The notes beneath the pieces were generated by a model. The model was not told the DNA's origin, made no database searches, and saw only the letters and a list, made by a program, of their open reading frames with translations. Positions 979 to 23,125 of a DNA stretch of 64,000 nucleotides are shown here, one piece after another. The translations under genes were made by a program, and so were the position numbers. Every line of letters begins with the position of its first letter. Positions within the stretch are counted from its first letter, which is position 1. The DNA is from Mariniblastus fucicola (GTDB lineage: Bacteria; Planctomycetota; Planctomycetia; Pirellulales; Pirellulaceae), in the NCBI RefSeq assembly GCF_008087665.1, contig NZ_CP042912.1:558001-622000 (forward strand). The letters run 5' to 3'.

Positions 979-1164
979 GGTGGCATAGGCTTCCAGCCTG
1001 TGTCAGCATCTCGTTTGCATTTGTCGTAGTGGTGGCTTCCAGCCGCCGCATTTTGTTCTTCCGAATCAAGAACTGCTTTTTGTTTCCAGGGCGACGGCAT
1101 GCAAACAGAGGCGGCTAGAAGCCGCCACTACGACGTGCAATCACAGGCCAGAGGCCTATGCCAC
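979..1164. repeat. Nested inverted repeat between convergent genes
   Basis: The whole gap between two converging stop codons is an imperfect palindrome. The outer arms, 979-1002 and 1142-1165, are reverse complements with about three mismatches. The inner arms, 1024-1046 and 1112-1134, are reverse complements with about two mismatches. Each arm is itself a small hairpin of the type GGCTTCCAGCC or GGCGGCTAGAAGCCGCC. The left outer arm begins one base after the radical SAM TAA, and the right outer arm touches the mutM TAG. It could act as a bidirectional terminator or be a REP/MITE-like element; both are inference. Confidence 0.8.
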
Positions 1165-2506: not shown

Positions 2507-3739
2507 ATGCCCACATCTTTTCTTGACGCTCCCAGCCCAGATGCCAGCTTGCCCGATGAGAACGGTCGATTCGGTGAATTCGGAGGCCGCTACGTTCCCG
2601 AGACCCTTGTTCAGGCTCTGGACCAACTCGAAGCCGAATACAACAAGGCGAAAAACGATCCCGAATTTATGGAGCAACTGAAAGTGCTCCTGCGAGACTT
2701 CGTCGGCCGCCCTTCCCCGATGTATTTCGCCAAGCGGTTGACTGAGCAAACCGGCGGAGCCCAGATCTGGTTCAAACGTGAAGACGTCAATCACACCGGC
2801 GCTCACAAGATCAACAGTACACTCGGTCAAGCGTTGCTGACGCAGCGGATGGGCAAGACGCGAGTCATCGCGGAAACCGGTGCGGGACAACACGGCGTGG
2901 CAACGGCAACGGCGTGTGCTCATTTCGGTTTGCCTTGCGTGGTCTATATGGGCGAAGAAGATGTTCGCCGCCAATCGCCAAACGTGCAAAGCATGCGAAT
3001 GATGGGCGCCGAGATCCGTCCGGTGACAACAGGATCGCGGACTTTGCGTGACGCCGTCAACGAAGCCATGCGGGACTGGATGGGTAGCGTCGAGAACACG
3101 CATTACATTCTCGGTAGCGTCGTCGGACCGCATCCCTTTCCCGTCATCGTTCGCGACTTCCAGGCGATCATCGGTGAAGAGACGATTGACCAGTCGATGG
3201 AGCGTTTTGGCCGACTACCGGATGCTGTCGTGGCTTGCGTCGGTGGCGGAAGCAACGCGGCAGGCATGTTCTTTCCTTTCGTGGCTCGCACCGACGTGCC
3301 GCTGATTGGCGTAGAGGCCGGTGGGCACAACGACACGCCAGGCCAACACGCGTCGAGTCTGACTTACGGTCGGCCAGGCGTTTTGCACGGCAGCTTCAGC
3401 TACGTCTTGCAGGACGACGACGGCCAAACGGATGATGTACACTCGGCGTCAGCCGGGCTGGACTATCCTGGCGTAGGTCCCGAGCACAGTCACTGGAAGA
3501 AAACGGGGCGCGTCGAATACCGCAGTTGTCGCGATGACGAGGCGTTGGCGACGTTTGACATGATTGCCAAAACGGAAGGCATTTTGCCGGCTCTCGAGTC
3601 GTCACATGCGATCGCAAAAGGCATCGAAGTTGCAAAAGAACGAAACAAAGACGAGATCGTCGTGGTTTGTCTTTCCGGCCGTGGCGACAAAGACGCGGCA
3701 GAGATCCAGCGACTGCAAAGTGAACGCGACGCTTCCTGA
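2507..3739 (+). CDS. trpB: Tryptophan synthase beta chain
   Basis: Joins indole to serine in a PLP-dependent reaction, the last step of tryptophan synthesis. The protein has 410 residues, close to the usual 390-410. It opens with the [13 protein letters not shown] signature. The PLP lysine is K101 in HTGAHKIN, the GAGQHG substrate loop follows near residue 126, and GGGSNA is the phosphate-binding loop. The end reads SGRGDKD as in the family. It belongs to the TrpB1 type that normally works with TrpA, but no trpA or other trp gene is next to it; the following gene is a secreted DUF1080 protein 35 bases on. An orphan location is odd but not unusual for scattered planctomycete biosynthetic genes. 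Confidence 0.97.
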
Positions 3740-6904: not shown

Positions 6905-7011
6905 AACGGTTCGCCAAAAGGTTTCGGGTCGGCGATGCTAACAGGGAATCGGTAAAACGCCAGAGCCTTGCACTTCACGTTGCTGTCGCTCCCCGCCCCA
7001 GCGGTTGTGCG

Positions 7012-7038
7012 TGGCTGTGGCTTCCAGCCGCAGTATTT
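7012..7038 (+). repeat. GGCTTCCAGCC-type hairpin repeat
   Basis: Contains GTGGCTTCCAGCCGCAGTATT. The same core with the trailing GCAGTATT recurs near 18612-18638, and a variant lies near 22781-22806. It sits between the divergent EamA and thyA genes. See the finding on the repeat family. Confidence 0.6.
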
Positions 7039-7181: not shown

Positions 7182-7976
7182 ATGAAACAATACCTCAGTT
7201 TTCTCCAGCACATCCTCGACAACGGCGTCGACAAAAGCGACCGGACGGGAACCGGAACGCGAAGCGTATTTGGCCATCAAATGCGATTCGATCTCTCCGA
7301 TGGCTTTCCGCTGGTGACCACCAAGAAGCTACACCTGCGCAGCATCATCCATGAACTGTTGTGGTTCCTGAAGGGTGAAACCAATATTGCCTATCTGCAA
7401 GAAAACAAAGTTCGAATTTGGGACGAGTGGGCGGACGAAAACGGAGACCTCGGTCCGGTCTACGGTTCGCAGTGGCGATCGTGGCAAGGCGCCGGTGGAG
7501 AAACGATCGACCAGATTTCCCAGGTCATCGAGCAAATCAAAACGACTCCTGATTCGCGGCGATTGATCGTCAGTGCCTGGAACGTCGCCGAAGTTCCAAA
7601 GATGAAACTTCCTCCCTGCCATCTGCTGTTTCAATTTTACGTTGCGGAGGGAAAGCTCAGCTGTCAGCTGTATCAACGAAGTGCCGATGCGTTTCTGGGC
7701 GTGCCCTTCAACATCGCGTCTTATGCGTTGCTGTTGCAGATGGTTGCCCAGGTGACGGGGCTTGACGTTGGCGATTTCGTGCACACCTTTGGTGACGCTC
7801 ACATTTACAGCAACCACATGGAGCAAGTCGCATTGCAGTTGAGCCGCGAGCCGAAGGCGTTGCCGACGTTGAGGCTCAATCCCGACGTTGATTCAATTTT
7901 CGACTTCAAGTTTGAAGACATCGAAATCGTGGACTACGGTCCGCATCCGACGATCAAAGGCAAGGTTGCTGTTTGA
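7182..7976 (+). CDS. thyA: Thymidylate synthase
   Basis: Methylates dUMP to dTMP using methylene-tetrahydrofolate. From the ATG at 7182 the protein is 264 residues, the same length as the E. coli enzyme, and starts MKQYL like it. The nucleophile is Cys146 in PPCH. The dUMP-contacting [11 protein letters not shown] segment, the [10 protein letters not shown] loop and the HIYSNH motif are all present, and the final GKVAV matches the usual C-terminal lid that closes on the folate. A TTG 36 bases upstream keeps the frame open, but the added residues do not fit the family, so ATG 7182 is preferred. It is followed by folA, which recycles the dihydrofolate this enzyme makes. Confidence 0.97.
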
Positions 7977-8001
7977 GGTGGCGTAGGCTTCCAGCCTGTG
8001 A
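7977..8001 (+). repeat. GGCTTCCAGCC-type hairpin repeat abutting the thyA stop codon
   Basis: GGTGGCGTAGGCTTCCAGCC begins at the base after the thyA TGA. It is nearly identical to the copy that begins one base after the radical SAM TAA at 979. The core AGGCT/AGCCT pairs as a small stem. Confidence 0.65.
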
Positions 8002-8157
8002 ACGCGCTCGATGCTGTGCGGAAGTAGTGCTGAAGAATCCAGTTAGCGGTCAACGCTGCGGCAGGAAGCCACAATCACGTGAAATGTCAAAGCTGTCCTG
8101 AAACTTTGGCCCGCCATTGGCAACTCTCAGAGAGTGTCTTTAATAGAAAAAATACTG

Positions 8158-18562: not shown

Positions 18563-18937
18563 TCGACCGTTTGGTCGTAGGGTCGGCTTCCAACTGTCGG
18601 CTTGCATCTCCGTGGCTGCGGCTTCCACCCGCAGTATTCCCAATTGCCGCTTACCGCTTACCGCTTCCTGCTGTAGCCGCTGTTTACGCTTGCCCGCGGA
18701 TTCGCGGTGTCAATCCGCTCTCGGGCCACTTCAGTTTTGCATTCATCAATTCCTGTTGGGGCCGTGGATATTCGCGAAGGCTCGATGAATCCTCTTGCCG
18801 GTAGCCCATTGGCCAAAAAAGACAGCAGAGAATTCTGCGATGAAAAACGCTTGACGACACGTGTCGTCATTTGGTAGCTTAAATCTGACGACAGGTGTCG
18901 TCGCTGTCGACCGAGCGTCCGATTTTCCGAGGATTCC
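18563..18937. other. Intergenic region with repeats and BlaI control region
   Basis: 375 bases without a gene. The left part holds two copies of the hairpin repeat family (about 18576-18604, degenerate, and 18612-18638, with GCGGCTTCCACCCGCAGTATT), then three direct CCGCTTA-like units (about 18648-18667). The right part holds the operator-promoter of the blaI-M56 operon. Confidence 0.6.
18851..18902 (+). promoter_or_regulatory. Promoter with two palindromic BlaI-type operators
   Basis: Operator one (18852-18869) is the perfect 18-base palindrome TGACGACACGTGTCGTCA. Operator two (18887-18902) is GACGACA-GG-TGTCGTC. Their centres are 34 bases apart, about three helical turns. A -35-like TTGACG (18851-18856) lies within operator one, and a -10-like TAGCTT (18875-18880) lies between the operators, so a repressor on both sites would block transcription of the BlaI gene that starts at 18938. 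Confidence 0.75.
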
Positions 18938-22780: not shown

Positions 22781-22806
22781 GTTCGCGGTTTCAACCGCAG
22801 TAGGCT
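22781..22806 (+). repeat. Hairpin repeat variant (CGCGGTTTCAACCGCAG)
   Basis: GCGGTT/AACCGC (22785-22798) with a two-base loop, followed by GTAGG. It resembles the GTGGCTTCCAGCCGCAGTA copies elsewhere and sits at the border of the GH51 relic. Confidence 0.45.
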
Positions 22807-23085: not shown

Positions 23086-23114
23086 CAAAAAGGCGACGGC
23101 CGGAAGCCGTCGCC
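23086..23114 (-). terminator. Intrinsic terminator of gyrA
   Basis: On the minus strand a nine-base perfect stem GGCGACGGC/GCCGTCGCC with loop TTCCG (23092-23114) is followed by a run of five T. It lies 12 bases past the gyrA stop. The GGCTTCCGGCC core resembles the dispersed hairpin repeats. Confidence 0.8.
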
Positions 23115-23125
23115 ATACCGCGTGA

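Follow-up and report, generated by a model that had tools for sequence, protein, structure and literature searches.

The hairpin that stands directly behind the thyA stop codon of Mariniblastus fucicola, together with similar hairpins elsewhere in the same genome, very probably belongs to the GTAG/GTGG class of REP elements, here comprising four or more stem families with a common TTCCA loop, which are likely to be non-autonomous units mobilised by REP-associated tyrosine transposases (RAYTs). The hairpin was noticed in a stretch of 64,000 nucleotides (the window; bases 558001-622000 of a single-contig genome of 6,570,840 bases, 6.57 Mb), where a first-pass annotation had read such repeats as a REP-like element, an RNA-stabilising 3' hairpin or a reused terminator. 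The first of these readings is borne out by the GTRG foot and hairpin sequence, the folding potential, the copy number, the intergenic and 3'-end sites, the feet-outward orientation of pairs, RAYT genes flanked by type C copies or by a loop variant, and the absence of the thyA hairpin from the thyA-folA gap of relatives.

Each element consists of a GTGG or GTAG foot, a 7-bp stem and a five-base TTCCA loop. The copies at thyA and at the radical SAM gene share GTGG-C(A/G)TAGGC-TTCCA-GCCTGTG, in which the stem includes a T-G wobble. A folding program returned the foot and hairpin fold, with one further pair closed within the loop, while the complementary strand of the type A hairpin folds more poorly, with 5 pairs. 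The core initially proposed, GGC-TTCC-GCC (GGCTTCCGCC), was one base short of the true core, GGC-TTCCA-GCC (GGCTTCCAGCC), and was rejected: it has 10 matches in the window at up to one mismatch, where chance gives 4.8 on average and at least as many in 3 of 100 shuffles. Counted over the whole genome with patterns that cover types A and C, not B and D, the repeats lie above chance: AGGCTTCCAGCCT has 106 matches (49 + 57 on the two strands) and its reversed control pattern 0, and GGCTTCCAGCCGC has 32 (19 + 13), its backwards pattern again giving 0. The commonest 23-mer, of type A, occurs exactly in 78 copies, the pattern GTRGCRTAGGC-N5-GCCTGTG in 88, and the thyA copy is one base off the exact 23-mer.

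A catalogue was compiled from the window and fetched stretches (664,693 bases in 59 pieces, ~10% of the genome), a sample centred on copies and on transposase hits, to which three 19-kb stretches were added arbitrarily; stretches around AGGCTTCCAGCCT came from among 100 of its 106 genome-wide places. The catalogue pattern comprised foot, stem and TTCCA loop, tolerated one mismatch each in foot, loop and outer stem, and leaves out loops more than one base away from TTCCA, such as that at 1142-1164. It returned 144 hairpins, 135 of them with an exact GTGG or GTAG foot, while none of 10 first-order Markov shuffles yielded any. By stem, 83 belong to family A (GTGGCATAGGC), 20 to A2 (GTGGGATAGGC), 13 to B, 18 to C (GTGGCTGCGGC...GCCGCAG, in many cases with TATT next), 6 to D and 4 to others. 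The stems vary through paired changes while foot and loop remain alike, and the two sub-types distinguished from the window at the outset correspond to families A and C. A2 hairpins also lie within ~173-bp tandem repeats (locus L077, 2912-3400; genome about 1941911-1942399), with similar series near 2018616-2019067 and 2409052-2409517, so that some A2 copies multiply within a larger tandem unit. Separately, about 11 copies of a B-like form (GTAGCGGTGGC) were counted by eye, altered feet and loops included, in ~16 kb at genome 5940600-5956842 (L103).

Within the window (Table 1), GGTGGCATAGGC begins at 979, immediately after the TAA (976-978) of the radical SAM gene, and GGTGGCGTAGGC at 7977, immediately after the thyA TGA (7974-7976), as first described. 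The reverse copy at 1142-1165 does overlap the mutM TAG, by one base, and its loop is CTCTG, not TTCCA. Among the other copies listed by the first-pass annotation, those at 1026-1048, at 1109-1131 on the reverse strand and at 7011-7033 hold up, those at 18577 and 18612 are degenerate, and the one at 22781 is a loose resemblance only. The gyrA hairpin, which it had linked to the repeats through a common core, has a T-run and is terminator-like as stated, whereas its kinship with the REPs is uncertain. Between 979 and 1165 two feet-outward pairs are nested, and as RNA this region forms one long hairpin (z -11).

Table 1. Hairpins in the window (positions are those of the window).
Element	Positions	Strand	Remarks
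REP type A	980..1002	+	One base past radical SAM TAA; extra G at 979 belongs to the conserved sequence
REP type B, GTAG foot	1026..1048	+	
REP type B, loop TTCTA	1109..1131	-	Inverted partner: 1026-1048
Type A stem, loop CTCTG	1142..1164	-	Adjoins mutM stop; inverted partner: 980-1002
REP type C	7011..7033	+	
REP type A variant (CGTA)	7978..8000	+	One base past thyA TGA; element under study
Degenerate REP type C, foot GTGA, loop TTCCT	8056..8078	-	Inverted relative to 7978-8000
Degenerate GTAG hairpin	18577..18599	+	14 nt past stop of a GCV_H-family gene (stop end 18562)
Type C hairpin, single stem mismatch	18612..18634	+	
Type D-like hairpin, foot ATGG, then T-run	23094..23116	-	Behind gyrA; terminator-like, REP kinship uncertain

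The placement of the catalogued copies relative to genes was analysed with gene calls from a home-made codon-pair caller, which assigned 83% of the 664,693-base sample as coding and missed RAYT-1 (see below). No overlap with a called gene was found for 125 of the 144 copies; 14 lie wholly inside a gene and 5 overlap one end. Density per kb of intergenic DNA is 3.48 copies between convergent genes, 1.41 between tandem genes and 0.23 between divergent genes. The foot points towards a gene 3' end in 94 of the 130 copies not wholly inside genes. For these 94, the foot lies within 5 nt of the stop in 23 cases (null mean 6.1, maximum 15, over 5000 random placements in the same gaps) and within 12 nt in 41 (null mean 10.8, maximum 22), type A supplying 31 of the 41. 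Lone copies show the same polarity: between tandem genes the foot faces the stop in 20 of 27 (p=0.02), and between convergent genes it is the nearer end in 13 of 14. When all 78 copies between tandem genes are taken, 48 have the foot to the stop and 30 are opposite. The tail end never came as close as 12 nt to a called stop (0 of 76), a figure partly forced by the feet-outward pairs and by conserved bases beyond the hairpin. RAYT-1 provides an exception to the foot rule, in that the tail of its left type C copy abuts its own stop. Thus, the outcome is the opposite of a chance placement, since both the stop-codon bias and the intergenic bias are present; the bias claimed by the first-pass annotation is real, but its "fixed position at gene ends" is too strong, given a median foot-to-stop distance of 22.5 nt. 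Element strand was also compared with GC skew, which is too irregular for placing replichores.

Neighbouring hairpins are oriented in a characteristic manner. Among neighbours less than 400 bp apart, 34 are feet-outward, 23 point in the same direction and none is feet-inward, so the two inverted, feet-outward REPs of a REPIN occur here repeatedly. Convergent genes do not account for this bias, because tandem genes border 18 of the 29 feet-outward pairs that are less than 300 bp apart. The spacers of the 34 pairs range from 11 to 199 bp, and 20 pairs are of a single family while 14 mix families. For 45 of the 130 copies not wholly inside genes, there is no neighbour within 300 bp.

A linked RAYT gene, suggested at the outset as something to look for, was found both between type C copies and between copies of a loop variant. 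Searches with PF01797 and NF047646 between them mark eight Y1 transposase places in the genome; inverted GTRG-class hairpins flank two of them (RAYT-1 and RAYT-2), the remaining six being without such flanks. RAYT-1 (234 aa) sits between two type C copies of the GCAGTATT type, the right-hand one starting 4 nt past the stop of the next gene. A two-ORF element (an HTH part and a DDE_3 endonuclease part in overlapping frames; L068, 5921-7104) lies between RAYT-1 and this right-hand REP. RAYT-2 lies between two GTGGCTGCGGC-GTCTC-GCCGCAG copies beside a metH-like gene, so named from its translation. The HUH histidines H148 and H150 and the tyrosine Y208 are invariant in 20 of 20 aligned RAYTs, which carry a long extra stretch ahead of the HUH motif; the tyrosine motif reads YIRANP in RAYT-1 and YIRSNP in RAYT-2. 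RAYT-1 scores above the cut-off of Pfam Y1_Tnp. Both proteins fall below the cut-off of the NCBI REP-transposase model (67 bits for RAYT-1 and 63 for RAYT-2, cut-off 80), yet for RAYT-1 this model outscores the NCBI IS200 model. A profile of the 20 RAYTs searched against solved structures ranked E. coli TnpA_REP (4er8) first with E=1.2e-6, other transposases being at 0.017 or above, which places these proteins nearer TnpA_REP than IS200 transposases. The corresponding single-sequence search of solved structures gave chance matches only, and a PHROGs search gave no match.

The association recurs in relatives. A RAYT of genome G016, 59% identical, is likewise flanked by type C, so that type C adjoins a RAYT in two genomes. 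Within the genus, similar GTRG hairpins in inverted orientation enclose the RAYT at 11 distinct places (65 locus records, some places being represented twice). Among the best 80 of 389 RAYT relatives, from named genomes, 18 have such hairpins on both sides and 62 do not; the 5 shuffled sets and the 31 control stretches gave no such case. A RAYT shared by G010 and G001 has on either side GTGGCGTAAGC-TTCCA-GCTTGCG, which is related to type A through paired changes; G000 is without a close relative of the G010/G001 RAYT, its best matches being RAYT-1 and RAYT-2 at 34-35% identity. On a contig of a MAG labelled Akkermansia muciniphila (L344, about 2867-3650), we also observed a RAYT flanked by the GTGGCTGCGGC-GTCTC-GCCGCAG hairpin of RAYT-2, the two proteins being just 40% identical.

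The exact type A 23-mer occurs in 20 of 396 genomes drawn from the order, all 20 in the family of the window's organism and spread over 11 genera, at 1 to 572 copies per positive genome. In the genome with 572 copies (G393), those viewed, a part of the total, form head-to-tail arrays with 27-29 bp steps. In two such arrays on its contig 11 (L366, 19891-19969; L370, 4488-4618), the spacer is constant within each array and different between the two, as if copies had multiplied locally once inserted. Searching 110 kb of G393, together with six stretches from five further genomes, gave no RAYT flanked by type A; a partial transposase match alone was seen, at the start of L365 and more than 6 kb from type A. 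Type A flanks none of the RAYTs at the loci examined, which cover part of the family's genomes. This counts against the REP model, as do the Y1 transposases and RAYT relatives that lack flanking hairpins and the scores of RAYT-1 and RAYT-2 below the REP-transposase cut-off.

Comparison of the thyA-folA gap among relatives is consistent with mobility. In M. fucicola the gap is 181 bp and holds the hairpin. No such hairpin is present in the gap of 24 other same-genus genomes that have folA next after thyA (17 to 255 bp), where a single AT-rich chance pairing was seen (L155); G015, whose ThyA is 85% identical, has a gap of 17 bp. A search for folA after thyA in a 25th genome, G013, gave no match; there, about 138-200 nt past the thyA stop, stands a feet-outward pair of related but not identical hairpins (GTGG-AGATGGGC-TTCCA-GCC...; L153), apparently an independent insertion. 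Its presence is a further point against the REP model. As judged from sequence, the differences in this region would fit independent insertions. None of the relatives compared offers an exact empty site, as they are too distant.

How, then, might these hairpins have reached gene ends? A HUH-tyrosine transposase would recognise them as single strands and cut at the foot, by analogy with E. coli, whose RAYT is reported to recognise single-stranded REP DNA and to cut the GTAG motif (PMC3733652). They would often move as feet-outward pairs (REPINs), and RAYT-1, by the same analogy, may act on type C. For type A the enzyme may be a RAYT that our searches missed, one since lost, or one that acts in trans; REPs in genomes without a RAYT are on record (PMC3733652). 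Placement behind stops would reflect insertion and then survival, with directly adjoining copies probably surviving best, perhaps also because a stop-adjacent hairpin could alter mRNA decay or translation termination. The foot being the end beside stop codons fits its being the sharp end of the element. It is possible, if rather unlikely, that type A is an orphan REP, moved in trans by the RAYT of another REP or travelling between species, which lands foot-first behind stops and builds locus-specific gene ends.

The foot-first sites near stops can also be read as 3'-end RNA elements under selection, in which the hairpin would tune the gene before it, either by shielding the end of the mRNA or by making ribosomes stall. 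An effect on mRNA is conceivable, since reduced translation has been reported for E. coli when a REP lies less than 16 nt behind a stop (a 2025 paper citing earlier work, PMC12306157), and this explanation would be compatible with a REP origin. We regard it as a tentative possibility, for the distance to the gene end exceeds 12 nt in 53 of the 94 copies that face one, the thyA copy is missing from that gap in 24 same-genus genomes, and a copy number of 0 to 572 over the 396 genomes resembles mobile DNA more than a needed regulator. Reuse of intrinsic transcription terminators at gene ends would agree with GC-rich hairpins past stops and with the T-run at the gyrA hairpin, yet it is hardly credible for the families overall: TTTT occurs within 10 nt in just 7 of 140 copies (five main families), and the copies between tandem genes lie in both orientations, 30 of 78 being reversed. 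The gyrA hairpin stands as an exception.

The feet-outward pairs might, alternatively, be MITEs or long-TIR elements with REP-like inverted ends, an idea that the inversion itself and a similar inner sequence in two pairs (388707 and 4450220; judged by eye) would favour. We consider this very improbable in view of the variable spacers, the limited number of single-family pairs, the 45 copies without a close neighbour and the RAYT genes found between single hairpins. The REP model, in which these pairs would be REPINs, gives regulatory-looking hairpins of a Pirellulaceae-type genome an identity as mobile repeats and cautions against reading them as terminators. Because the genus has many RAYTs with different flanking hairpins, the part of the enzyme that reads each stem becomes testable, and, thanks to the foot-to-stop placement, REP effects on expression can be tested cleanly outside Proteobacteria.

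The kind of element and its 3'-end placement are already known, while these particular stem families seem to be undescribed: our searches of open-access literature gave no description of them and no mention of type A being shared between genera, types A-D having been compared with the families of Di Nocera et al. 2013 (PMC3733652) by description, not by the consensus sequences of its Figure 1. In the sections compared, that study reports GTAG-class REPs in Planctomycetes, where Rhodopirellula baltica has several families as well as many repeat-flanked tyrosine transposases, head-head dimers preferred in most families, and sites near gene 3' ends, <20 bp in two plotted genomes. The hairpins described here resemble its GTAG-tagged REPs in their GTAG/GTGG foot, 6-9 bp stem and multiple families per genome, and also in being mostly intergenic, near 3' ends, arranged as head-head dimers and accompanied by nearby RAYT genes; exact sharing of one type across 11 genera was not met in those sections. 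They are like the REPIN-RAYT system (Bertels and Rainey 2011) and the E. coli REP/BIME elements with TnpA_REP in forming dispersed inverted, feet-outward pairs linked to a HUH-tyrosine transposase, but differ in that spacing varies much, 14 of 34 pairs mix families, the RAYTs have a long stretch before the HUH motif and type A has no adjoining RAYT. The TnpA_Y1 class 3 of Planctomycetes, as described in parts of PMC6006769, likewise combines Y1 transposases with flanking hairpins, but has a CnGA foot and a YV..EQ-type motif, whereas the elements described here have a GTRG foot and the motifs YIRANP and YIRSNP.
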